Positions 27,949-52,194 of a stretch of DNA of 64,000 nucleotides are shown in pieces. Source of the DNA: Chryseobacterium sp. JUb7 (lineage in GTDB: Bacteria > Bacteroidota > Bacteroidia > Flavobacteriales > Weeksellaceae); NCBI RefSeq assembly GCF_024806495.1, contig NZ_JANUFF010000009.1, positions 62,001 through 126,000 of the forward strand. The letters run 5' to 3'. The notes below the pieces were generated by a model that worked only from the letters and a program-made list of their open reading frames with translations, was not told the origin of the DNA and did no database searches. The position numbers were made by a program, and so were the translations under genes. Within the stretch, counting starts at the first letter, position 1. The number at the start of each line of letters is the position of its first letter.

Positions 27949-29571
27949 ATGAGAAGAAAAAATTTTATCCTTTTGTTATTACTATGCTTACAGATGGGTT
28001 TTGCACAGTATAAAATGCCAGTAGCTTTTGTGAGCTCATTACAACCAGCACAACCGGGACAGGAAGCCGGAATGTGTAATGATAATAATGCCAATACATT
28101 ATATCATTCCCGCTATAATTTAACTACTGCTATGCCTGATCAGCTGAGCTTTAATTTTTCAAACCGTGTAAAAAGCGTAAATAGGTTGGTGTATAAACCC
28201 AGACTTGCCGGCCCAAACGGAATATGGACAAGTGTTAAAATTTCATATTCTACACAAACGAATCCAAACGTTTTCGTGGATGCAACGGGGATTATTACTT
28301 GGGCAGCGAATAATACAGCAAAAACCATTGATTTACCCACAGTTATTATCAAACCGGCGGTGATCAAAGTGGATGTGTTATCGGCTCAGAATAATTTTTC
28401 GAGCTGTGCCGAAATGGAGTTCTATTCTGATGAGCAGGTAGATCCCATACAGTCAGAATGTGTATTGCCTGCCAATGAGTTCGCTGCTTACACCGATATC
28501 CCGGTCTTGCCACAGGTTTCAGGATCATCAGCTTCAAGCATTCAGGCAGGAGAAGGCATTGAGAAATCTTTTGATGGTAATATAAATACTCTATATCATT
28601 GTGACTGGAATGCTACAGCTGCTACTTTCCCAATTTCTTTGGTTTACAGATTTGACGGACAGACTGCAATGAATTATTTGCGCTATACACCACGCCAAGA
28701 TGGCGGACCAAACGGACTTTTTGGAAATGTAAAGATCAGTTATAACACCGTTTCCAATCCCAATTATATTGATCTGTCAATACAAAATTTCGGACAAACG
28801 AATACCATAAAAACAGTTGTTTTCCCTTCAGCAATTACTCCGTTAAATATAAAAATTGAAGTTCTGGACGGGAAAAATAATTTTGCAAGTTGTGCCGAAA
28901 TGGAGTTTTTCAGGACTAATCCGAATAGTTTTGATCTTTCTGCCTATTCAAATATTTTTAATGATACGATATTAAGCACTTTAAAACCATCGGTCAGCCA
29001 GCAGGATATTAATGCAATTTCTTCACCTTTTATTAAAGGTTTAGCACAATGTTTATTTAATAATACATATCATAAAAAGTATAGGGTTCAGACGTTTTCA
29101 GCCTATAAAACAATTGAATCAATCAATACACAATACAAAATAGGGAACTATAATAATTATGAAAATCCAACAGGAATCGTATTTCAGACCAATACGACTG
29201 CTATTGTTTTTGCAAAAGATATTACTGCTGCCCATAAGGTATATTTAAAAATAAGAGATTTTGCCACTGAAGGCTCTTCTCCTGAAAAATCTTATGAACT
29301 GAAAAATGGACTGAATATTTTAAATATTACCAATGCCGGTTTAGGATATATATCTTATTATACCGATGATACCAATGCAGCTCCGATATCTGTAAATATT
29401 ACTGCGGGAATTGTAAATGGTATTTACAAAAAAGGAACAGCTTCAGCGGAATGGACCGCAATGCTTACTAATGATGTTTATCCGAAAATTGATATAGAAG
29501 GCTATTACACAAAGCTTGTGATAAATAAATCAGCGGTAAGTAATTTTCTTTTACAAATCCTCAGCCGCTGA
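27949..29571 (+). pseudogene. M60-like peptidase, N-terminal fragment before a frameshift
   Basis: 540 aa frame with a signal peptide (LLLLLCLQMGFAQ), two discoidin-like modules of about 145 residues (each ending in SCAEMEF) and the N-terminal part of an M60 domain (TTAIVFAKDITAAHKVYL). It ends in NFLLQILSR. The intact paralogue at 31200 reads NFHYTTPQPLIDKYD at this point; the alignment shows one missing base around 29544-29552 (TTTTCTTTTAC). The rest of the protein follows in another frame. If the base is really absent, this fragment has no catalytic site. Confidence 0.8.
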
Positions 29572-29609
29572 TCGATAAATATGATGCGATTACAAAATCA
29601 GAAAGAGAA

Positions 29610-31064
29610 ATGATGGGCTTTTTTAAATTTAATAAAAATATAAAAAACAGACAGCTTGTCTATACAGAATCTACGGGAGGCTGGTTTGCAGGAGGTCTGG
29701 GCGTTCATTTAGATCTTACATGGGGGCTTTCAAATTCCGCTTCGGCAACCGGACTTGATATTTGGGGAGTTGGTCATGAATTGGGACACGTCAATCAGGT
29801 ACGACCTGGATTGAAATGGATAGGAACGACAGAAATTACCAATAATTTATACTCGTTATGGGCATATTATAATTTATATTCACCTACGGGAAGCAACAGG
29901 TTTACAAGGCTTGAAGGAGAAACTGCAGATAAAACGACTTTTCCTAAAGTGGCAGGAAACAGATTTGGAGAAATTATCATTCAGACACAGATCAATGGAA
30001 AAAATATTATGGATCAGTTCAGAATAGATTATGTGAATGCACTTGACGCTAACTTCAGAAGTCTTGTTCCGTTCTGGCAGTTAGAGTTATATTATCAGTT
30101 GGCGGGCGCTTCAAAAGGCGCTCAGAGACTGGCTTTTGATTCGGATATGTCTGATGAGGATACACAAACGCCTTCAGGTCCGGGAACAGGAGTGGACTAT
30201 GCCCATTGGTTTGCCACGGTAGCAGAGAAGGTGAGAAATACAGATGAATCTCAGCTTAATCAAGGGCAGCTGATGATGAATTTTGTTAAAAATACATGCG
30301 ATGCGGTACAGGAAGATCTTACTGATTTTTTTACAAGTACAGGTTTTTTAAGACCTATTAACGGGACTATTTCAGATTATTCGACAGATCAGCTTACTGT
30401 TACACAGAGCATGATTGATGATGTGAAAGCTTATATATTATCAAAAGGATATGCCAAACCGGTTTCACCAGTGATCAATTATCTTTCTGCAAATAGTGTG
30501 AATGCCTTTAAGGATCTTTTACCGGTTTCAGGAGTAACAGGAGTCGGAGCCCAGATTACCAATAATGCTCAGGGACAGTTTTTATTAGTTGACAATTCAA
30601 AATGGACTAATGCTGTTGCATTCGAAACTTACACTGCTGCCAATCAATTGATCAGCGTGTCTATTGTGGGGACGGGAGATACAACATTAGCGAATACGTA
30701 TGTTGATTTTCCTTCTAATGCACAGAAAGTATATGCAGTTGGATATGATGGGCAAAAAATTCTGGTTTATCCGGCAAGCAGCCTGGCAGCTGAAGATGTG
30801 AAAGGAAGTAATAATGATTTTACTGTTTATCCTAATCCTGTAAAAAATGATGACAGGATAACCATCAGTATCAAAGATGCGAAAGGAAATTATACCTGCA
30901 AAATTCATACTGTTGCAGGGCAGTTCTTATCAGAATTTAAAGGCAATTCCGAAGAGATTAATCGTAGGGTGAATACTCAGTTCAACGGATTAACGAAGGG
31001 TGTATATATCCTCTCTTTTTCCAATGGAAATGAAAGTTATGCCACTAAAATAATCAAGAATTAA
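29610..31064 (+). pseudogene. M60-like peptidase, C-terminal fragment after a frameshift
   Basis: 484 aa from the first ATG; the shifted frame is open from about 29549. It contains the zinc gluzincin motif H56-E-L-G-H60 (WGVGHELGHVNQV) with the downstream Glu (GTTEITNN) and a C-terminal type IX secretion domain (FTVYPNPVKNDDRITI to YILSFSNGNESYATKIIKN). M60-like peptidases (PF13402 type) cut mucin-like glycoproteins. Without the signal peptide in the other frame it would not be exported, so the locus is probably inactive unless the frameshift is a sequencing error or is bypassed. Confidence 0.8.
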
Positions 31065-31199: not shown

Positions 31200-34100
31200 A
31201 TGGAAAAAAAATTATTATTCATTGTACTTTTCTGGAGTACAATGATCTTTGCTCAGCAGGAATATAAAATTCCTGCGATGAATGTGACTTCTCTACAAAC
31301 TCCACAGACAGGACATGAAACATGGCAATGTAATGATGAAAATGTAAATACGCTTTATATTTCCAACAATAGCTTAAATATCGGAATACCGGACCGGCTG
31401 GATTTTAATTTCTCTAAAACAGTCAAAAGTGTCAACAAATTGGTATATAAACCAAGAGCCACAGGAACAGACGGAATATGGACGAGTGTTAAAATTTCTT
31501 ACTCTACGCAAGCAAATCCATCAGTATTTATAAATGCAACAGGAATTATTTCTTTAGCAGAAGACAATACGGCCAAGACCATCACTTTGCCCAATCCGAT
31601 CGTTAAGCCGGCTATGATAAGAATTGATGTGTTAGGCGGGAAAAATAATTTCTCAAGTTGTGCCGAAATGGAGTTTTATTCATCAGAAAATATGACTTCC
31701 GCATCTACTGAATGTGCACTTCCAACTAGTGGTATTTCGAATTATCAGGATGTAAAAGTTACTCCTCAGGTTAATGGTTCGTCAGCTTCCAGTTTTCAGA
31801 ATGGTTATAATATTGAGAAATCTTTTGATGGAGACCCGACAACCCTTTATCATTCATCATGGTCTTCAGCAACTGTTTTTCCGGTAAAACTGATTTATAG
31901 ATTTAACGGGCAAACTCCGATTAATTATCTGAAATATATTCCGAGACCCGGAGGTGGCAGCCATAATGGTTTTTTCGGGAATATAAAAATAAGTTATAAT
32001 ACTTCTTCTAATGCCAATTATATAGTTATTGCAACCCAAAATTTTCAGCAGAACGGTACTGCCAGAACAGTATATTTCCCCAATACCATCACTCCACTGA
32101 ACATTAAAATTGAGGTTTTGGATGGCTTCGGTAATTATGCCAGCTGTGCAGAAATGGAATTTTACAGAAATAATCCGAACAGCTTAAATCCTTTAGCTTA
32201 TGCCAATATTTTTAATGATACTATTTTTGGCGGTCTGAAAAGTAATGTAACTCAACAGAATATCAATGCCATAAGCTCACCTTTTGTAAAAGCTTTAGCA
32301 CAGTGTTTATTTAACAATACTTACAATAAGAAATACAGGGTAAAAGAATTTCGTCCTTATAAAACATTAGAAAGCATTAATACTCAATATAAAATAGGAG
32401 GATATAATCCTTTTGAAAATGCGACAGGAATTGTATTCGAAGCGAATACTACGGCAGTAATTTTTGCAAAGGATATTACGGATGAATCGCCCGTAAATTT
32501 AAGAGTGAAAAACTTTGCGAATGAAACAAATGCTGAAAACAGTATTTATCCTTTAAAGAATGGGCTTAATATTATTAATATAACAAATAAAGGGTTAGGA
32601 TATATTTCGTATTTCACGGATAAGGCATCTGCACCTACTGTTAAATTGAATATCACAACAGGGATTATCAATGGGATCTACACAACAGGAATTACAGATT
32701 CTAAAGACTGGATAGAAATGCTAGGAAATGGGGTTTATCCTAAAGTAGATATAGAAGGGCACTATGCTCAATTGCTAATTGATAAGTCTGCCATTAAAAA
32801 TTTTCATTATACAACTCCTCAGCCTTTAATTGACAAATATGATGTTATTACAAAATCTGAGCGCGAAATGATGGGCTTTTTTAAGTTTAATAAAAATTTT
32901 AAAAACAGACAGTTCGTATATACAGCATCTCAGGGAGGATGGTTTGCTGGAGGGATAGGAGTACACTTAGACCTTACCTGGGGAGTACCTCGTGCTGTTT
33001 CAGCTTCAAATCTTGCCATCTGGGGAGTTGCCCATGAACTGGGGCATGTTAATCAGGTAAGCCCTGGTATAAGATGGGTAGGAACTACCGAAATTACCAA
33101 TAATATCTATTCTTTATGGGCTGATTATAATCTTTATCCCCCTGTAGATAATAAAAAGCTTACAGGTATAGAGCGGGAAATTGCATATAAAACAGCCTTT
33201 CCAAGTGTAGTAGGAAACAGATTTGGGGAATTTATTATTCAGACAAAAATAAATGGTAAAAGCTTTTCAGATCAGCTTCGAGCAGATTTTGTAAATCCTA
33301 AGGATCAGCAGATCAGGACTCTTGTTCCGTTTTGGCAACTGATGTTATATTATCAGATAGCCGGAGCATCGAAAAATGCACCTGCTCTGGCATTTGATAC
33401 TAATATGTCGGATGAAAATACGGCTACAAATCCTACGTCTCCTCCTGCGGGAACTCCTGATTATGCACACTGGTTCGGAACTGTTGTAGAAAAAGTCAGA
33501 AATACAAATGAGTCCCAGCTTACCAACGGACAGCTGGTGATGAATTTTGTGAAAAATACCTGTGATGCGGTACATGAAGATTTAACAGATTTCTTTACGA
33601 CGACAGGATTTTTGGTTCCGATTAATGCTACTATCAAAGATTACTCTAACGGTCAGCTTACAATTACTCAAAGTATGATTGATGAGGTGAAAGCATACGT
33701 TGCATCTAAAGGATACGCAAAACCGACTTCACCTGTTATTAGTTATATTTCTGCAAATAGTGTGAATATTTATAAGAATAAATTACCACTTTCAGGAGTA
33801 ACAGGAGTTGGAGCCCAGGTAATGAGCAATGCTCAGGGACAGTTTTTATTAGTTGACAATTCAAAATGGAACAATGCAGTTGCATTCGAAACATATGATA
33901 CAAACAGTAAATTGATCAGCGTATCTGTGGTGGGAACAGGAGATCTGTCGATGGTCAATACATATGTTGATTTTCCTTCTAATGCACAGAAAGTATATGC
34001 TGTTGGATATGATGGGCAAAAAATATTGGTTTACCCGGCAAGTACACTGGCGACTGAAGAAGTTGTATTAAAAGACAGTAAGCTGATTATCTATCCTAAT

Positions 34101-34328
34101 CCTGTAAAAAACGGCGACAGAGTTACGATCAGTATAAAAAATGCCAAAGGAAAGTATACCGCCAAAATTCATAATCTTTCAGGGCAGTCTGTATTTGAAT
34201 ATAATGGTACTATTGAAGAAATTAACGAAAAAATAAATAATCAATTCAACAGATTACTTCAAGGGATGTATATTATTTCTCTCTCCAATGGAAATGAAAA
34301 CTATACAGGTAAAATAATTAAGAATTAA
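31200..34328 (+). CDS. M60-like secreted metallopeptidase with T9SS signal
   Basis: 1042 aa. Signal peptide (LLFIVLFWSTMIFAQ), two discoidin-like modules (about 20-165 and 175-325, each ending SCAEMEFY), M60 domain (about 340-800) with zinc motif H612-E613-L-G-H616 and E631 (GTTEITNN), a beta-rich region (about 850-960) and a type IX secretion domain at the end (LIIYPNPVKNGDRVTI to YIISLSNGNENYTGKIIKN). It should cut O-glycosylated proteins such as mucins outside the cell. It is a tandem paralogue of the broken gene upstream; some stretches are nearly identical at DNA level, which suggests recent duplication or gene conversion. Confidence 0.92.
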   Translation: MEKKLLFIVLFWSTMIFAQQEYKIPAMNVTSLQTPQTGHETWQCNDENVNTLYISNNSLNIGIPDRLDFNFSKTVKSVNKLVYKPRATGTDGIWTSVKISYSTQANPSVFINATGIISLAEDNTAKTITLPNPIVKPAMIRIDVLGGKNNFSSCAEMEFYSSENMTSASTECALPTSGISNYQDVKVTPQVNGSSASSFQNGYNIEKSFDGDPTTLYHSSWSSATVFPVKLIYRFNGQTPINYLKYIPRPGGGSHNGFFGNIKISYNTSSNANYIVIATQNFQQNGTARTVYFPNTITPLNIKIEVLDGFGNYASCAEMEFYRNNPNSLNPLAYANIFNDTIFGGLKSNVTQQNINAISSPFVKALAQCLFNNTYNKKYRVKEFRPYKTLESINTQYKIGGYNPFENATGIVFEANTTAVIFAKDITDESPVNLRVKNFANETNAENSIYPLKNGLNIINITNKGLGYISYFTDKASAPTVKLNITTGIINGIYTTGITDSKDWIEMLGNGVYPKVDIEGHYAQLLIDKSAIKNFHYTTPQPLIDKYDVITKSEREMMGFFKFNKNFKNRQFVYTASQGGWFAGGIGVHLDLTWGVPRAVSASNLAIWGVAHELGHVNQVSPGIRWVGTTEITNNIYSLWADYNLYPPVDNKKLTGIEREIAYKTAFPSVVGNRFGEFIIQTKINGKSFSDQLRADFVNPKDQQIRTLVPFWQLMLYYQIAGASKNAPALAFDTNMSDENTATNPTSPPAGTPDYAHWFGTVVEKVRNTNESQLTNGQLVMNFVKNTCDAVHEDLTDFFTTTGFLVPINATIKDYSNGQLTITQSMIDEVKAYVASKGYAKPTSPVISYISANSVNIYKNKLPLSGVTGVGAQVMSNAQGQFLLVDNSKWNNAVAFETYDTNSKLISVSVVGTGDLSMVNTYVDFPSNAQKVYAVGYDGQKILVYPASTLATEEVVLKDSKLIIYPNPVKNGDRVTISIKNAKGKYTAKIHNLSGQSVFEYNGTIEEINEKINNQFNRLLQGMYIISLSNGNENYTGKIIKN

Positions 34329-34512: not shown

Positions 34513-34540
34513 AAAAATCCCCAAACAAAAAGTTTGAGGA
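34513..34540 (-). terminator. Terminator after cassette 1
   Basis: Minus strand TCCTCAAAC, T5 loop, GTTTGGGGA, then TTTTTC. One wobble. Confidence 0.8.
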
Positions 34541-34560: not shown

Positions 34561-34956
34561 TTACTTGCCGAAGAATATTCGATCCTGTTTTTGCTGATCA
34601 TTATAAATAACCTGAAAATTGACCGGCATATACTGGTAAAGAAGCTTCCAGTGTTGAATTTTAGTATGTTTTTTAAAACTTTCAAATGACCTTACGAAAA
34701 TGTTTTCAATAATATCTTTTACATAAGAATCTCCGACTTTGTAAATCAGATCCATCAGCTTGATGTGATGGGCAATAATATTCACTTTTGATTCCTGTAA
34801 AAGGTTTTTCAAATAATTTACCGTTGCCTGCATAATCCCTGCAAAGTTGTCTTGTTTAGACAGTTGTGCAATCTCATTGCGAAGTGGTGGATAGAAAAAT
34901 TTTAAATATTCAATAGCTATTTTTTGATTAATAGTTTGCATTTGTACATTCATCAT
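34561..34956 (-). CDS. Soluble helical protein, cassette 1 (unknown function)
   Basis: 131 aa, helical, no signal or membrane segment. It shares with the protein at 35221 the pattern IYKVGDSYVKDIIENIFVRS (IYKNGDQLLKNAVENTFIYS there) and the overall length. I think it belongs to a recently named Chryseobacterium DUF (possibly DUF7674) but cannot confirm this. A small membrane-peptide gene (35007-35138) lies 50 nt upstream on the same strand, and the paralogue has the same partner. The ATG-ATG start is ambiguous by one residue. Confidence 0.7.
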   Translation of the reverse strand: MMNVQMQTINQKIAIEYLKFFYPPLRNEIAQLSKQDNFAGIMQATVNYLKNLLQESKVNIIAHHIKLMDLIYKVGDSYVKDIIENIFVRSFESFKKHTKIQHWKLLYQYMPVNFQVIYNDQQKQDRIFFGK

Positions 34957-35006
34957 AATTAATATTTTTCAGAACTCTTTTACTGCGGCGAAAACTGTAC
35001 CAAAGT

Positions 35007-35138
35007 TTATAAACAGGCAGCAAAAATAAATACACCGATAATCACGGCAATGTGAGTCGCTAAAATCTCTATATTGTGTTTGTTGGTCGATGTTTTCCAG
35101 GTTTTCCAGTCAGATATTTTTCTTATTTTTGTTTTCAT
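35007..35138 (-). CDS. Small membrane peptide, cassette 1
   Basis: 43 aa: a basic, Trp-containing N-terminus (MKTKIRKISDWKTWKTS), then a C-terminal hydrophobic helix (about 24-43, EILATHIAVIIGVFIFAACL). It has ATG and TAA in frame and matches the layout of the peptide at 35595. The pairing of a tiny one-helix peptide with a soluble helical protein, seen twice in a row, suggests a functional unit. No family recognised. Confidence 0.55.
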   Translation of the reverse strand: MKTKIRKISDWKTWKTSTNKHNIEILATHIAVIIGVFIFAACL

Positions 35139-35220
35139 AAAGGCTTGATTTTTAATAGGTTTTTATTTTGTGAATTTTAGTTCATTTGTAATAAAACGGA
35201 CAAAAAATGTAATAAAAATT

Positions 35221-35577
35221 TTATGTGCCATGGGTGTAGATCTGCTTGGCATATATTTTCAGCAAATCTTCAGAAAGATGACTGAATATTACTTTTCTGA
35301 ATTCCTGGCTGCAAAAAACCATTACACCATCCAAGGAATAGATAAAAGTGTTTTCTACAGCATTTTTTAATAACTGATCACCATTTTTGTAAATTTTGCC
35401 CATCTTATCCAAACTTTTAAATAAAACATTCCTGTCATTCTGTCGAATCATATTTTTTATACAATTGGTAAAAGTCTGGATGACATAATAAGAGTTTTGA
35501 GTCTTATTCTCTGTGAGTTCGTTTTGAATATCGGGAACAACATCAGAGATTTCCTGAACAGCTTCTAAATAATTCAT
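35221..35577 (-). CDS. Soluble helical protein, cassette 2 (unknown function)
   Basis: 118 aa from the ATG at 35577 (MNYLEAVQEISDVVPDIQ). A longer frame to 35670 would overlap the small peptide gene upstream in another frame, so the shorter start is preferred. It is a homologue of the protein at 34561. The gap to the upstream peptide stop (35595) is 17 nt, so the two are co-transcribed. No catalytic motif is visible. Confidence 0.7.
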   Translation of the reverse strand: MNYLEAVQEISDVVPDIQNELTENKTQNSYYVIQTFTNCIKNMIRQNDRNVLFKSLDKMGKIYKNGDQLLKNAVENTFIYSLDGVMVFCSQEFRKVIFSHLSEDLLKIYAKQIYTHGT

Positions 35578-35594
35578 ATTTAAATAATTATGTT

Positions 35595-35747
35595 TTAAAT
35601 TTTTTGAAAAAAGAACCAGATCAGCATTAATACGACAGCTAATGCCAACATTTTGTAGGATTTCAGCCATTTCGGAGTTTCCGGACCTTTACTTTTTAAT
35701 CTTCTTAGTGTATCAAGGCGGTTTAATGTTTTTAAGTCCATTTTCAT
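35595..35747 (-). CDS. Small membrane peptide, cassette 2
   Basis: 50 aa: charged N-terminal half (MKMDLKTLNRLDTLRRLKSK), then GPETPKWLKS, then a hydrophobic C-terminal helix (KMLALAVVLMLIWFFFQKI). It ends 17 nt before the soluble partner. The same basic N-half plus C-terminal helix layout as the peptide at 35007, with little sequence identity. Confidence 0.6.
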   Translation of the reverse strand: MKMDLKTLNRLDTLRRLKSKGPETPKWLKSYKMLALAVVLMLIWFFFQKI

Positions 35748-35919
35748 ATGTTTTGAGAATCATAATGCCAAATAGTATTCCTTTAGAGGTTGTTTTGATT
35801 TAATTGATTGTTTTATAGTGGTTTATTTTATTTTTATTTAAATTTTAAATAAAAAAATCATGTCAAAATGATAAGGTTTTTATCAGAATGAAATACTGCT
35901 GATTCTCTGAGATAATTAA

Positions 35920-35927
35920 TATCTTTG
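35920..35927 (+). promoter_or_regulatory. -7 box (TATCTTTG) for the nucleoid protein gene
   Basis: TATCTTTG followed by CA, 18 nt before the ATG at 35946. A transcript from here would exclude the alternative ATG at 35925. No clear -33. Confidence 0.5.
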
Positions 35928-35945
35928 CAATCCAAAATATTTAAG

Positions 35946-36959
35946 ATGTTTTCAAAAATCGTAGTACACAGAGTCGGAAATAAAATCAACGGAGAATCTT
36001 TAACGCTTTCTCAGGAAGAGTTGCAGTTGGAAGAAGGAATGGCAGAATTGCTTGAAGATTACTTTTTAGGATCTTTTAAATCGGAAGAAACATTCCATTT
36101 TTACAGTGATACCTATTTGGTTAATAATGCTGTTTTCAGTTCTGTATCTGAAATTTTTGATGATAAAGCCAAATTTCTTTGGGAATCTGAAAATATTGCA
36201 AAACACCTTTTTGAAGCTGCTGAAAATCCAAGAGTTCAGGGTGGAGAATTATTTATCGTATATTTTGAAGACGAAAGAGAAGGCACAGAAAGAGTGGATA
36301 AAATCGGAATTTTCAAAACTGAAAAAAGAGAATCTTTCCTTAAAATTTCTCCTAATCAGGAAACTTTTGATATCGAAAAAGATCAGGGAATCGGCTTGTC
36401 GAAAATTGATAAGGCTGCTTTAATCTATAATAATGATAAAGAAACGGGGTATGTACTTTCTGTGGTTGATAACAACAAAAACGGAGATATGTATTACTGG
36501 TTCGAAGATTTCTTAAAAGTAAAACAGCGTGATGATGAATATTTCCACACCCAGGAAGCATTGATGGTGTATAAAGATTATATCACAAAACAGCTACCTC
36601 AGGAATTTGAAGTTTCGAAGGCAGATCAGGCAGATTTTTTAAATAAATCAATCAATTTCTTTAAAGAAAAAGAAGAGTTTAAATTAGATGAATTTGCAAC
36701 GGAAGTATTGGGAGATGAGCATGTAATTGAAAGTTTTAATAATTTTAAAACAGATTATGAGCAGGATATGCAGATCAATATTGCTGAGGAATTCCCGATC
36801 AGTGAAGCGGCTGTTAAGAAGACTCAGAGACATTTCAAGAGCATTATTAAATTAGATAAAAATTTCCACATCTACATCCATGGAGATCGTCAGAAACTGG
36901 CTACGGGAGAAGATGAAAAAGGGAAATATTATATGTTGTATTTCGATAAAGAAGTTTAA
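35946..36959 (+). CDS. Nucleoid-associated protein (NdpA/YejK family)
   Basis: 337 aa from the ATG at 35946 (MFSKIVVHRVGNKINGE); the ATG at 35925 lies within the predicted promoter. Family features: IVVHRVGNK at the N-terminus, YFEDEREGTERVDKIGIFK, FLKISPNQETFDIEKDQGIGL and the C-terminal IKLDKNFHIYIHGD. E. coli YejK binds the nucleoid; the molecular role in Bacteroidetes is unclear. It appears monocistronic. Confidence 0.88.
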   Translation: MFSKIVVHRVGNKINGESLTLSQEELQLEEGMAELLEDYFLGSFKSEETFHFYSDTYLVNNAVFSSVSEIFDDKAKFLWESENIAKHLFEAAENPRVQGGELFIVYFEDEREGTERVDKIGIFKTEKRESFLKISPNQETFDIEKDQGIGLSKIDKAALIYNNDKETGYVLSVVDNNKNGDMYYWFEDFLKVKQRDDEYFHTQEALMVYKDYITKQLPQEFEVSKADQADFLNKSINFFKEKEEFKLDEFATEVLGDEHVIESFNNFKTDYEQDMQINIAEEFPISEAAVKKTQRHFKSIIKLDKNFHIYIHGDRQKLATGEDEKGKYYMLYFDKEV

Positions 36960-45689: not shown

Positions 45690-47882
45690 ATGAATTTTGT
45701 AGAATGTCATGAAGAGCCCATCCATATTCCGGGCTATATACAAAGTTTTGGATATCTTATTGGCATCGATGCAATATCTCATTCCATAGCTTTTTTTAGT
45801 CAGAATATTAAGGATATTTTTACGATCGAAAACACCGAACAGCTTTTCGATAAGAAGATTACGGATTTTCCTGAAAGTTTTCAGGACATTATACAGTCAG
45901 ACATTTACAATTCGCTCAATAATTTCGCAAGACGAGAAAATGAAACGTATTTTGATAAAATTGTTATCAAGGATAAGGAATATCATTTCTCGGTTTTCAG
46001 AAGTGGTAAAAATATCTTTCTGGAGTTTGAAGGTGTTTCAACCAATCCTAACAAAAGGATATCCAATAAGTACGATAATTTCTACATCATTGATGACGAA
46101 CAGGAGCTTTGGGATCAGCTTTTAAGTACGCTTTCCAAAATTGTGAATTATGACCGGATGATGGTCTATAAATTCATGATGGACGGCTCGGGAAAGGTGA
46201 TCGCTGAGAAAAGAGATGATAATATGGAAAGTTATCTTGGGCTGCATTACCCGGAATCAGATATTCCGAGACAGGCCCGTGAACTCTATCTCAAAAAAAG
46301 AAAAAGAATTTTCAGTAATGTGTACGCAGAAACTGTTCCGGTGCTGAGTAAAAGCAGTAAACCTATTGATCTTACTTTTACGGCAACGCGTGCTATGTCG
46401 CCTATTCATGGGCAGTATATTAAAAACTCGGGAGCTTCTTCGAGCTTTAGTGTTTCTATCATTATTGATGATCATCTCTGGGGGCTGGTAACCTGCCAGA
46501 ATTCTGAACCTAAACATATAGATCTTGAAGACAGAGTGCAGGCTGGAATTTTTACTGCCCTGGCATCCAATGCCTATTCTTCTTTTAAGTCTAAAAAAGA
46601 ATTGAACTACCGACTGGAGCTTAATGAAGTATCTTCACAGCTTAAATCAGAATTTTTAAAACATAACAGTCTATTTGATTCTTTGGTCGAAAATAAAGCT
46701 GAAATCAAAGATCTTCCTGAAGCTGATGGTTTAGCCATTGTTTCAGATGAAAATATTGTGACAGAAGGGATCGTTCCGGACAATGAAATGATTAAAAGAA
46801 TCGTCGACTGGGCTCATGAAAATACCGATGAGGTTGTTTATTCCAACAGAAGTTTTCTGAAAAATTATGGCGAAACGCTTCGCTTGGATGAGAACAGTGC
46901 CGGAATCATTATTTATTTTGTTGAAAAGAGTAAAAATGAAATGTTGATATGGTTCCGAAAAGAATTTGATGAACATATCAACTGGGCCGGAAATCCAGAG
47001 AAGAAAATAGGTGTATTTTCTCAAAACGGTGAGGAGAAGCAAATTGTCTCGCCAAGAACTTCTTTTCATCTGTTTACAGAAAATATCAAAGGAAATTCAA
47101 AGCGGTGGAATTCAAGAAATATCGCTGCAGTACAGGCTGTGCGTGATCTTATTCTTGAAACTTCCCATAAAAATTATATTACCATCAAAAGGCTTAATGA
47201 TGAGCTTAAGCAGGTGAATGAAGAGCTGGACAGTTTTTCATATACCATTTCACATGATTTGGGAACTCCTTTAACGGTGATGAAGCTGAATGCTCAGATG
47301 TTATTGAACAGTCTTACAGACGGCTCTGAAAAAAGTAAAAATAAAATCAACTCCATTATTGAAGAGATTGATAATATGGCAGAAATGATGCATGACGTTT
47401 TACAGCTGAGCCGCGCAAAACATAGCGAAATTGAGCTGGAGAATATTGAAACTATTAAAACCATTCAAAAGATCTCCGAAAACGCAAAAATTACTTTTGA
47501 CAGTCCGAGAAGTGAAATTATTATCAAAGATTGTCCTGATGTTTTAGCGGATAAAACTATGCTTCACCAGGTCTTTTTAAATATCATCAACAATGCGGTT
47601 AAATATTCTTCACAAAGCGAGCAACCCAGAGTTGAAATTGAAGGTACAGAAGACGGACAGACGATTATTTACAGAATTTCTGATAACGGAATAGGAATTC
47701 CCGAAGAGGAAAAATATAAGATGTTTAAAATTTTCAACAGAATGGATAATGCGAAAAAATTTAAAGGAAATGGAGTAGGATTATCCATCGTACACCGAAT
47801 TATGAAAAGAATTGGTGGAAATGTTGATTATAATAGCAATAAAGAGGGGACAAGTTTCATTTTAACGTTTAAAAAACCTTAA
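45690..47882 (+). CDS. Bacteriophytochrome histidine kinase
   Basis: 730 aa. PAS-like N-terminus with the biliverdin-binding Cys6 (ECHEEPIHIPG), GAF domain with the chromophore-pocket segment PESDIPRQARELY (about 190-203), PHY domain (about 320-500), then HisKA with H522 (SYTISHDLGTPLTVMK) and an HATPase domain (NIINNAVKYSS, GNGVGLSIVHRI). It is a red/far-red light sensor that autophosphorylates. The response regulator is not adjacent. A heme oxygenase gene 27 nt downstream supplies the biliverdin. The start is fixed by the promoter and the Cys6 position. Confidence 0.95.
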   Translation: MNFVECHEEPIHIPGYIQSFGYLIGIDAISHSIAFFSQNIKDIFTIENTEQLFDKKITDFPESFQDIIQSDIYNSLNNFARRENETYFDKIVIKDKEYHFSVFRSGKNIFLEFEGVSTNPNKRISNKYDNFYIIDDEQELWDQLLSTLSKIVNYDRMMVYKFMMDGSGKVIAEKRDDNMESYLGLHYPESDIPRQARELYLKKRKRIFSNVYAETVPVLSKSSKPIDLTFTATRAMSPIHGQYIKNSGASSSFSVSIIIDDHLWGLVTCQNSEPKHIDLEDRVQAGIFTALASNAYSSFKSKKELNYRLELNEVSSQLKSEFLKHNSLFDSLVENKAEIKDLPEADGLAIVSDENIVTEGIVPDNEMIKRIVDWAHENTDEVVYSNRSFLKNYGETLRLDENSAGIIIYFVEKSKNEMLIWFRKEFDEHINWAGNPEKKIGVFSQNGEEKQIVSPRTSFHLFTENIKGNSKRWNSRNIAAVQAVRDLILETSHKNYITIKRLNDELKQVNEELDSFSYTISHDLGTPLTVMKLNAQMLLNSLTDGSEKSKNKINSIIEEIDNMAEMMHDVLQLSRAKHSEIELENIETIKTIQKISENAKITFDSPRSEIIIKDCPDVLADKTMLHQVFLNIINNAVKYSSQSEQPRVEIEGTEDGQTIIYRISDNGIGIPEEEKYKMFKIFNRMDNAKKFKGNGVGLSIVHRIMKRIGGNVDYNSNKEGTSFILTFKKP

Positions 47883-47909
47883 ATTTGGGAAACTTTTTAA
47901 AACCTTATT

Positions 47910-48461
47910 ATGGTATCAGAATATCTTAAACAAAATACTGCTGAGTTTCACGATGCGGCTGAGAAATTATTTAGTTCTGAAAAAATCTTTAGCAGAACTT
48001 TCACTTTAGAAGACTATAAAAAAATCATCCATACCAACTATTTGATGCTTCTTCACTCTGAAGACAAAATTTTCAGCAGTCTTGCAGATAAGTTTTCTGA
48101 TAAACTTCAGTTAACGGACAGAAAAAAGCTTCCTCTTATAGAAAAAGATCTTGAAAGTCTGGCTTTAGAAAATCAGGCTGCCTCTCATACTCTTGAATTT
48201 GATAATGAAAATGAGGCTTTGGGAGCCATGTATGTGATCGAAGGTTCTACTCTGGGAGGGAATGTAATTGCTAAGCAGCTTTCTAAAACAGAAGGATTTG
48301 ATAACGTAACATTTAATTTCTTCGGATGTTATCAGGAAAATACAGGGCCTATGTGGAAAAGCTTCAAAGAAGTTCTGGATACTGAAGTAAAAGAGGAAAA
48401 CTACAACGAAGTATTGTCCGGCGCTAAAAAGCTATATACGTTCTTATTAAACGTTAATTAA
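47910..48461 (+). CDS. bphO: Biliverdin-producing heme oxygenase
   Basis: 183 aa. Proximal heme ligand H14 (TAEFHDAAEKLF) and the distal helix signature GAMYVIEGSTLGGNVIAKQL, where glycines allow oxygen to bind. It opens heme to biliverdin, CO and iron. Its place directly behind the bacteriophytochrome gene is the classic bphP-bphO arrangement, in which it makes the light-sensing chromophore. A hairpin follows at 48478. Confidence 0.93.
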   Translation: MVSEYLKQNTAEFHDAAEKLFSSEKIFSRTFTLEDYKKIIHTNYLMLLHSEDKIFSSLADKFSDKLQLTDRKKLPLIEKDLESLALENQAASHTLEFDNENEALGAMYVIEGSTLGGNVIAKQLSKTEGFDNVTFNFFGCYQENTGPMWKSFKEVLDTEVKEENYNEVLSGAKKLYTFLLNVN

Positions 48462-50332: not shown

Positions 50333-50869
50333 TTAATTAATAAATACGACAACATTGCCGCTAGTAGGATTTCCAACGTAGTTCCATGTTGCGGTGATAC
50401 CGGTTGGTGTGCTGTCATTGAAGCCTCCATTGCCACTGTTAACAAATCCACAGTCTCTTCCAAGCTGTAAAAATTCACCGTTAGCAAAATTTAAATCAAT
50501 AGATTGCCAAGAAGTTACATTGGTGATTGCGGGGCTTATCATAACTCCTGCAGAAGTATTGTAAGTCTGACCGGGAATTCCAATAGCTTCAGAAATAACA
50601 GCCCATTCATTGATATGTGGAGCTGTAATAGGCACTGGTGTATGGCTCGTATTGTATTGAGAATACGTTACCATGCTTGATGGTGGTAATGGCGTGGCGG
50701 AAATCCCTTGAACGATGGGTTGGCAGTCAATAGGCTGCGTGTTGTCGTTCGTACCTACGAGTCTTAAATTGACACTTTGTGAAGAAAAGTTATAGATCGT
50801 CATTGTCCCGCTCTGAGCGTATGCGATAGTTCCGATTAATAATAAAAGGAATAATGAGATTTTTTTCAT
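50333..50869 (-). CDS. Secreted protein, unknown family (copy B of a duplicated pair)
   Basis: 178 aa with signal peptide MKKISLFLLLLIGTIAYAQ, identical in sequence to that of the copy at 51297. The mature part begins with a beta strand (GTMTIYNFSSQSVNLRLVG), contains two conserved cysteines (IDCQPIV and LGRDCGF, probably a disulfide) and ends NVVVFIN. There is no catalytic motif or sorting domain. It is the fourth gene of a tandem duplication (lipoprotein, secreted, lipoprotein, secreted). The N-terminal strand faintly recalls thaumatin-like or pore-forming folds, too weakly to call. Confidence 0.7.
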   Translation of the reverse strand: MKKISLFLLLLIGTIAYAQSGTMTIYNFSSQSVNLRLVGTNDNTQPIDCQPIVQGISATPLPPSSMVTYSQYNTSHTPVPITAPHINEWAVISEAIGIPGQTYNTSAGVMISPAITNVTSWQSIDLNFANGEFLQLGRDCGFVNSGNGGFNDSTPTGITATWNYVGNPTSGNVVVFIN

Positions 50870-50893
50870 GTAAATTTTGTTAAAGCATAAAGA

Positions 50894-51259
50894 TTAAAGA
50901 GAAGAATTTGGATAACTGTCCTGGAAAATTTCCATTGCCCATGCAATCATTTTTGCTTTATCACCATGGGTTGTTTTTTCGATTTGCTCCTCTTTTATTC
51001 CTGTTGACTTGATAAGGTCTTTCGCGGCAGGAAGGAGAATGTCTTTTCTTTGTTCACTCATTTCTGGGAACGGGACATTCTTGCGTTTTTTCTCAAACAT
51101 AGGAATATCTTTAGCATTGTTGAAGGTAATGATTGCCTTCTTAAAATTCTGAACAGCTTCAGCCGTTTGATTTTCCTGAGCCATAGCCGGAATACTTTCA
51201 TTACTGCATGAAGTCATAGCAAAGAAGCATGCAACTGCAAACAAAAAAGTTTTTTTCAT
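50894..51259 (-). CDS. Small lipoprotein (copy B of a duplicated pair)
   Basis: 121 aa; signal MKKTFLFAVACFFAMTS then Cys18. The mature part is helical (ENQTAEAVQNFKKAIITFNN; MSEQRKDILLPAAKDLIKST; EEQIEKTTHGDKAKMIAWAM) and shares most positions with the copy at 51826. The next gene starts 24 nt downstream. No family recognised. The constant pairing with a secreted partner suggests that the lipoprotein assists, tethers or neutralises it. Confidence 0.7.
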   Translation of the reverse strand: MKKTFLFAVACFFAMTSCSNESIPAMAQENQTAEAVQNFKKAIITFNNAKDIPMFEKKRKNVPFPEMSEQRKDILLPAAKDLIKSTGIKEEQIEKTTHGDKAKMIAWAMEIFQDSYPNSSL

Positions 51260-51296
51260 AGTTATTTAAATTTAGCCTGTAGTTTTTATGATACAA

Positions 51297-51803
51297 TTAG
51301 TTAATGAATACTATGACATTATTTCCCAGAGCGTTCCATGTTGCTGTTATATTACCTGTGGTTGCTCCGCTAAATATCCCGGTACCGCCACCTCCACAAT
51401 GTACACCCAGGTTGATGAATCCGCCGTTTGAAAAGTTAAGATCGATGGTATGCCACGCTGTAAGATTTGAAAGTTGTGGTGGAATGGTAGCTCCTGTTGA
51501 TACATTATAATTCTGGCTTGGAATACTATTTTCGTCCGAGATTACATACCATTCGTTGATAGCAGGGGTTTGCAGATAACTGGAATTATATGTTGGATAA
51601 GTTACAGAGCTTGAAGGAGCTAAAGGAGCCACAGGATAACCTGTAACCACCGGCTGACAGTCAATATTAAAGGCATTGAGTTGAGAACCTACCAGTCTGT
51701 ACGTAACATTGTATGCTGAGAAATTATAGATGGTAATAGCTCCTGCCTGAGCGTATGCGATAGTTCCGATTAATAATAAAAGGAATAGTGATATTTTTTT
51801 CAT
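51297..51803 (-). CDS. Secreted protein, unknown family (copy A of a duplicated pair)
   Basis: 168 aa from the ATG at 51803; a frame to 51914 would overlap the lipoprotein gene and bury the signal peptide. Same layout as copy B: signal ending AYAQ, AITIYNFSAYNVTYRLVG, conserved Cys in IDCQPVV and LGVHCGG, ending NNVIVFIN. The first about 60 nt of the two genes are almost identical while the middle has diverged, as expected after tandem duplication with selection on the exposed part. Confidence 0.7.
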   Translation of the reverse strand: MKKISLFLLLLIGTIAYAQAGAITIYNFSAYNVTYRLVGSQLNAFNIDCQPVVTGYPVAPLAPSSSVTYPTYNSSYLQTPAINEWYVISDENSIPSQNYNVSTGATIPPQLSNLTAWHTIDLNFSNGGFINLGVHCGGGGTGIFSGATTGNITATWNALGNNVIVFIN

Positions 51804-51825
51804 AAGAATTCTGTTAGGATAAAGG

Positions 51826-52194
51826 TTATAAAGAAGCGTTTTTGTAGTTGTTCTGGAAAATTTCCATGGCCCATAGAATGGTCTTTGTTTTATCCCCTTT
51901 GGTTGCCTTTTCAATTTGCTCCTCCTTTACTCCTGTAGATTTAATAAGATGCTTTGCAGCAGGTAGAAGAATGTCTTTTCTCTGTTCGCTCATCTGGAAG
52001 GACTGATATTCGGTATTGAGCTTTCCATCAGTTACCGGAAGGTCTTTCGAGTTATTCACGGTGATGATGGCACGTTTAAAATTCTGAACAGCTTCAGCAG
52101 TCTGATTTTCCTGATTTACTGTCTGGATGCTTTCATTATTGCATGATGTTGTGATAATAAAGCATGCAATAGCTAAAAAAAATGTTTTTTTCAT
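51826..52194 (-). CDS. Small lipoprotein (copy A of a duplicated pair)
   Basis: 122 aa; signal MKKTFFLAIACFIITTS then Cys18. Mature part as in copy B (ENQTAEAVQNFKRAIITVNN; QMSEQRKDILLPAAKHLIKS; EEQIEKATKGDKTKTILWAM). It is the first gene of the four-gene cluster. A perfect 13-bp inverted repeat lies 22-58 nt upstream of its start and is the likely control site. Confidence 0.7.
   Translation of the reverse strand: MKKTFFLAIACFIITTSCNNESIQTVNQENQTAEAVQNFKRAIITVNNSKDLPVTDGKLNTEYQSFQMSEQRKDILLPAAKHLIKSTGVKEEQIEKATKGDKTKTILWAMEIFQNNYKNASL

Follow-up and report, generated by a model that had tools for sequence, protein, structure and literature searches.

A putative detached piece of the Kdp potassium-uptake system in Chryseobacterium encodes two membrane micropeptides and two DUF7674 proteins

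Four genes on the minus strand at 34561-35747 of the window (the whole stretch of 64,000 nucleotides of Chryseobacterium sp. JUb7 DNA that was analysed), in the order pepA, protA, pepB, protB, are best read from comparison with related genomes as a segment of the Kdp system that has moved to a site beside a nucleoid-protein gene. A link of these genes to Kdp and potassium is very probable. The best overall explanation, to which we give just better than even odds, is that the locus has been detached from Kdp, the high-affinity system for potassium uptake; for the narrower proposal that its products are membrane-anchored modulators acting on the pump itself we consider the chances evenly balanced. 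Rather than forming a toxin–antitoxin pair, the four genes probably assist or control the uptake of potassium. The features referred to below are as follows.

34518..34540, minus strand: terminator-like stem-loop with a T-run, downstream of protB (consensus match only)
34561..34956, minus strand: protB, DUF7674 (PF24722) protein of clade B, 131 aa, all-helical model
35007..35138, minus strand: pepB, predicted single-pass membrane peptide of 43 aa with M(K/R)xKIR...DW.. and a conserved hydrophobic end
35221..35577, minus strand: protA, DUF7674 (PF24722) protein of clade A, 118 aa, all-helical model
35595..35741, minus strand: pepA, predicted single-pass membrane peptide of 48 aa (50 aa when started at the ATG at 35747)
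35761..35772, minus strand: candidate control box, TTTGGCATTATG, containing TTGGCA, 30 nt upstream of the pepA start
35925..36959, plus strand: NA37 (nucleoid-associated) gene, divergent and upstream, the usual neighbour of the detached locus

An earlier, sequence-only reading had placed two small peptides and two soluble proteins here, and all four ORFs were confirmed; its outer limit at 35747 was revised, as the start of pepA conserved in relatives is the ATG at 35741, and protA is 118 aa long from its own conserved start. The terminator scan reported no stem-loop between protA and pepB which, together with the terminator-like stem after protB, is consistent with a single transcript. The NA37 gene is not taken to be a member of the system. 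Elsewhere in the window, a large secreted-protein gene occurs as tandem copies (27949-31064 and 31200-34328), the second a single ORF of 1042 aa and the first split into ORFs of 540 and 484 aa between 29571 and 29610; the three ORFs fall in one cluster (L082). A two-gene cassette, read from the sequence as a lipoprotein-like protein of 121-122 aa and a secreted-like protein of 178-205 aa, is present twice in tandem at 50333-52194. At 45690-48461 a phytochrome-type histidine kinase gene adjoins a heme-oxygenase gene, and in many congeners a pair of this kind (clusters c10 and c13) is found flanking the NA37 locus.

The two peptides are alike in layout and not in sequence, as had been claimed for them: each has a basic N-terminal part (33 residues with net charge +7 in pepA, 24 residues with +5 in pepB) and a hydrophobic C-terminal stretch (Kyte-Doolittle 2.25 and 2.54, respectively), and BLAST gave no alignment between them. 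Neither peptide was matched by Pfam or NCBIfam. A ..GPxTPKWLKPYH.. motif is kept in relatives of pepA. The hydrophobic end of pepB in the window is THIAVIIGVFIFAACL; a lipoprotein or pheromone interpretation of this C-terminus (AACL) was abandoned, since other rows of the alignment have M, I, V, F or L in place of the Cys. In 24 genomes carrying the complete set of four genes, amino-acid identity averaged 73% for pepA, 67% for protA, 82% for pepB and 83% for protB, and pN/pS was 0.24, 0.27, 0.19 and 0.14, respectively. When the peptides were divided, the N-half of pepA (0.12 vs 0.40) proved to be its constrained part, while in pepB both halves are constrained (0.18 for the N-half, 0.20 for the other). 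Judged by these substitution patterns, pepA and pepB are real genes, conserved in Chryseobacterium and under purifying selection, and the conservation of their basic N-terminal parts suggests a cytoplasmic partner.

The soluble proteins are homologous, in agreement with the sequence-only reading: protA and protB share 23% identity over 108 columns (E 3e-12 in a single comparison) and an IYK.GD...K...EN block. Both exceed the curated 27-bit cut-off of PF24722 (DUF7674), protA with 76.7 bits (positions 2-110 of 111) and protB with 74.9 bits (1-109), and they are the only two DUF7674 proteins found in their genome. The PF24722 entry describes a family of unknown function, without a stated role, and a literature search found no paper containing the name DUF7674. 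The predicted models are all-helical and confident (pLDDT 90.6 for protA, 92.9 for protB). Foldseek returned no structure at E <= 0.001 for either model; a second structural look, at the protB model only, gave a best Z of 6.4 against known helical folds (VHS, CID, 14-3-3, HEAT-like), and a sequence search of solved structures gave weak matches only. As there is no convincing fold relative, a peptide-binding helical scaffold is just a guess.

Peptides and soluble proteins occur together well beyond this genome. DUF7674 was present in all 35 congeners of the first search, and in a family-level sample of 246 genomes DUF7674 was found in 136, pepB in 114 and pepA in 71. Of the genomes with pepB, 113/114 also carry DUF7674 (Fisher P 2e-45, kinship ignored), as do all 71 with pepA (P 1e-23, kinship again ignored); pepB is missing from 23 of the 136 genomes that bear DUF7674. 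Within the genus pepB is present in 95/99 genomes. The sole pepB genome lacking DUF7674 (G124) gave no match to the clade-A profile either. The small ORFs are thus conserved beside the homologues, a point on which the sequence-only reading had staked itself in advance, and its proposal of a membrane peptide with a soluble partner is supported. In the best 80 of 85 loci retrieved with pepB (78 labelled Chryseobacterium, two Weeksellaceae), a sample that favours close relatives because it was chosen by pepB itself, the gene order was pepA-DUF7674-pepB-DUF7674 in 72, DUF7674-pepB-DUF7674 in five, and pepA-DUF7674-pepB, pepA-pepB-DUF7674 and pepB-DUF7674 in one each; NA37 adjoins 77 of these 80 loci.

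The evidence that ties the locus to potassium comes from relatives in which homologues of all four genes lie inside or at the head of kdp operons. The context there comprises an NtrC-type sigma-54 activator, DUF7674, pepB, further peptides, a KdpF-like peptide, KdpABC, a BBP2 porin and KdpD, and the typical order in the gap is DUF7674-A, pepB, pepD (a peptide of 26-28 aa usually ending in KI), sometimes DUF7674-B, the KdpF-like peptide (25 aa, mostly ending KPEKF), sometimes pepE (a further peptide of about 36-41 aa) and KdpA; the KdpA start was not found in three of the 31 loci in which peptides before kdpA were read (L218, L224, L237). KdpF is a peptide of about 25-30 aa, with an N-terminal transmembrane helix and a KPE-F-like end, encoded directly before kdpA. 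The likeness to KdpF is that pepB lies in this same stretch at kdp loci; the difference is that the loci have a separate KdpF-like ORF of 25 aa, with almost no N-terminal tail and with the KPEKF end that we take to be the mark of KdpF, whereas pepA and pepB have longer N-terminal parts and no KPEKF. Neither is therefore classed as KdpF.

Many kdp loci carry DUF7674-A and pepB without DUF7674-B, pepB often following a DUF7674 gene without preceding one, and two loci (L158, L160) keep pepA and pepB and lack protA. Of the 'twin cassette' first described, then, the adjacency stands and the pairing as a natural unit does not. In other genera (L140, L142-L144) a pepA-like gene (..PKWLKSYHLL..) heads a kdp-type run; NhaA is its divergent neighbour, and TrkH and TrkA lie farther away. 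One congener has a third, distant DUF7674 copy (L047) that stands alone, divergent from NhaA and likewise with TrkH and TrkA further out; the third copies of G034 (L048) and G006 (L049) were missed by our own profile in the locus maps. At the level of the phylum, DUF7674 and KdpA were together in 16 of 22 loci mapped, a map in which our profile missed the DUF7674 match in four loci (L196, L199, L211, L212) and which leaves aside 15 of the 37 matching genomes (eight in the family-level samples, two of genus g3 and five with weak matches, E 1e-5 to 5e-4). The other six mapped loci, among them L196, a 4-kb contig, showed no kdp gene; L213 and L214 have DUF7674 without kdp in the map. In genus g3 the two were together in all 14 mapped loci (16 g3 genomes had a match), and at least five g3 genomes had no DUF7674 match.

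The genome of the window has a kdp operon of its own, consisting of a response regulator with a sigma-54 activator domain, pepC, pepD, a KdpF-like peptide, KdpA, the P-type ATPase, KdpC, the BBP2 porin and KdpD, and no DUF7674 gene. The pump and the DUF7674/pepA/pepB part therefore occupy separate sites in this genome. pepC is a peptide of 35 aa with a basic N-terminal and a hydrophobic C-terminal part, and pepD is here 27 aa; by sequence both look like peptide families of their own. Three membrane micropeptide genes (35, 27 and 25 aa) stand in tandem before this kdpA (L168:8569-8850), the last ending KPEKF.

Placement relative to KdpA was compared in 59 congeners; a genome with both KdpA and pepB (G172) was left out of the congener counts, and two with KdpA and no pepB (G147, G200) were added only for a comparison of 61. 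In 12 of the 59, pepB and KdpA were no more than 6 kb apart, and none of these 12 has pepA; in the other 47 pepB lay elsewhere, and 39 of them have pepA. By this difference (Fisher 1e-7, kinship ignored) the kdp and detached arrangements tend to exclude each other. Among KdpA-bearing congeners pepB was present in 59/61, against 0/4 of those without KdpA (P 2e-5, kinship ignored), the only pepB match in the KdpA-less genomes being a weak one (E 0.09) within a 606-aa frame; clade-A DUF7674 was also found in 0/4. These four may not be independent losses. Each of them keeps one DUF7674 gene beside NA37, of clade B by profile score, and DUF7674-B thus outlives Kdp. G147 and G200 carry KdpA without pepB (G200 also without clade-A DUF7674), so Kdp does not require the module.

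In a tree of 147 DUF7674 sequences, which carried program warnings about the small number of columns and about long branches meeting, clade B (support 100/100) includes protB and holds 48 detached, 11 kdp and two other copies, the detached copies being nested. Clade A includes protA and has moderate support (82/72), with 40 detached and 18 kdp copies as sister groups, so that no direction of movement can be read from it. Further kdp copies, for example those of g3, fall outside both clades.

The candidate control box also connects the two sites, as the first peptide gene of the own kdp operon is preceded by a 12-mer identical to TTTGGCATTATG. A TTGGCA whose first base lies 25-40 nt upstream of the first start codon was found at 26/28 kdp loci beginning with DUF7674-A, 13/16 kdp loci beginning with pepC and 20/27 detached loci beginning with pepA, compared with 3/794 other genes in the loci and none before pepB (0/32), protA (0/26) or protB (0/29), although it should be noted that this test was designed after the motif was noticed and that many rows are close relatives. 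Among the best 80 of 85 pepB loci the box lies 27-36 nt upstream of pepA in 47/74. With a wider permitted distance from the start codon (60 to 15 nt) it was found at 32 of 917 genes of at least 100 aa, of which 21 are in the DUF7674 cluster. The exact 12-mer TTTGGCATNATG has three copies in the genome (upstream of pepA, upstream of the kdp peptide and within an apparent RNA polymerase sigma factor CDS), the same as its reversed control (three), and so is notable for position only. TTGGCA looks like a -24 element, and the kdp regulator combines a receiver with a sigma-54 activator; no canonical -12 GC was seen beside the box in the rows inspected, and we therefore do not claim it as a sigma-54 promoter. 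Given a post hoc motif, related rows and no -12 GC, control of the box by the NtrC-type activator is only putative. In g3 the kdp upstream regions (L045, L046, L200, L203, L204, L207-L209, L215) have a second TTGGCA box 68 nt upstream of the first.

On the preferred reading, potassium limitation would cause the NtrC-type response regulator to activate the detached unit along with kdp. pepA and pepB would insert in the inner membrane with the N-terminus inside, beside KdpFABC as KdpF does, and their tails would hold the DUF7674 proteins at the cytoplasmic face of KdpFABC, with DUF7674-A binding the tails; the DUF7674 proteins would then set the assembly or activity of KdpFABC, and DUF7674-B may have an additional role independent of Kdp. 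More speculatively, many Bacteroidota Kdp pumps could be larger than the E. coli model, KdpFABC being joined by pepA-pepE, which would dock one to three DUF7674 proteins at the cytoplasmic side as a potassium-responsive brake or assembly factor, with the Chryseobacterium module relocated together with a kdp-type box to act in trans and DUF7674-B re-used for another ion transporter; we offer this extended version as a tentative possibility, on the unlikely side.

The main rival is a signalling module, in which kdp transcription, and not the pump, would be tuned, much as small membrane peptides tune PhoQ, through binding of the peptides to the KdpD-type sensor kinase or of DUF7674 to the NtrC-type regulator. 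It gains its place from KdpF, a tiny Kdp subunit that is also reported to bind KdpD (in mycobacteria, by two-hybrid assay; PMC3618439), and DUF7674-A does come immediately after the gene for the regulator, with the pump genes following, while one locus (L197) has DUF7674 between the porin and KdpD genes, one other gene intervening. The same paper, however, gives KdpF no critical regulatory role on kdp expression, and the regulator also heads kdp in the own genome, G147 and G200, operons without DUF7674 or pepB, so that we consider signalling unlikely, if still a serious competitor. It is distinctly improbable that the peptides are extra KdpF-like structural subunits only and DUF7674 a separate cytoplasmic protein merely in the operon: the three small membrane ORFs in tandem before the own KdpA, with their terminal KPEKF, would suit such a view, but pepB is without a DUF7674 match in just one of 114 genomes and the low pN/pS of both basic N-terminal halves suggests a cytoplasmic partner. 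Chance ORFs are so improbable as to be negligible, short length being all that speaks for them against strong purifying selection, near-constant lengths and a constant order in tens of genomes.

A toxin–antitoxin or other addiction module, as the sequence-only reading had suggested, would be in keeping, in both size and layout, with a small basic membrane peptide beside a soluble protein. It was rejected, and is now very improbable, on conservation, location and kdp context: the genes are confined across a genus to two places on the chromosome, next to NA37 or within kdp (L039 and L043 are among the few exceptions), rather than showing the mobile or patchy distribution of such modules; plasmid and phage collections, searched with protB as the only one of the four, held no relative of it; parts are found apart from the supposed partner (L158, L160, G124); and homologues sit in an ion-transport operon. 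The other suggestion of that reading, a stress sensor, comes near the mark only where the stress is potassium limitation, and sensing is putative. A mobile element or defence function was likewise rejected, since there was no plasmid or phage match for protB and the PADLOC and NCBIfam matches were weak, namely a REase_I match to protA in PADLOC (E 4e-4) and one of protA to DSR2 anti-phage defence (NF041819; 15.7 bits against a cut-off of 1400, over a C-terminal stretch only).

Returning to the preferred reading of a detached piece of the Kdp system, the peptides would resemble AcrZ, MgrB, SafA and MgtR, peptides with one membrane pass each that bind to a larger membrane protein, altering its activity or stability. 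We know of no member of this type in which two peptides are combined, within the operon of a potassium pump, with a homologous pair of helical cytoplasmic proteins. Control of the Kdp pump after its synthesis is established in the form of KdpB Ser162 phosphorylation, for which a 2020 paper calls the kinase system 'still unknown' (PMC7535926); this is a covalent change on KdpB, unlike the proposed DUF7674 module, although both would be post-synthesis control of the pump. TGES is kept in 35/35 KdpB-like sequences (picked by a motif that itself required TGE), so DUF7674 need not replace Ser162 control, and the known brake may exist in these KdpB as well. A comparative study of Chryseobacterium that mentions Kdp genes and salt tolerance names kdpA-D and no such peptides in the portion available (PMC10634447), and our literature search found no title or abstract opening describing such a peptide/DUF7674/kdp arrangement.

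We class pepA, pepB and DUF7674 as apparently unstudied accessory parts of a known pump, with the link to potassium being new. To our knowledge parts of this type are absent from the E. coli Kdp model. The analysis provides a testable functional hypothesis, potassium, for DUF7674, whose function is not assigned, and for several peptide families that lack annotation, and describes a segment of a transport operon that seems to have been relocated to a new site together with its control box. It also suggests that potassium uptake in a large bacterial group uses parts that lie outside the E. coli model.
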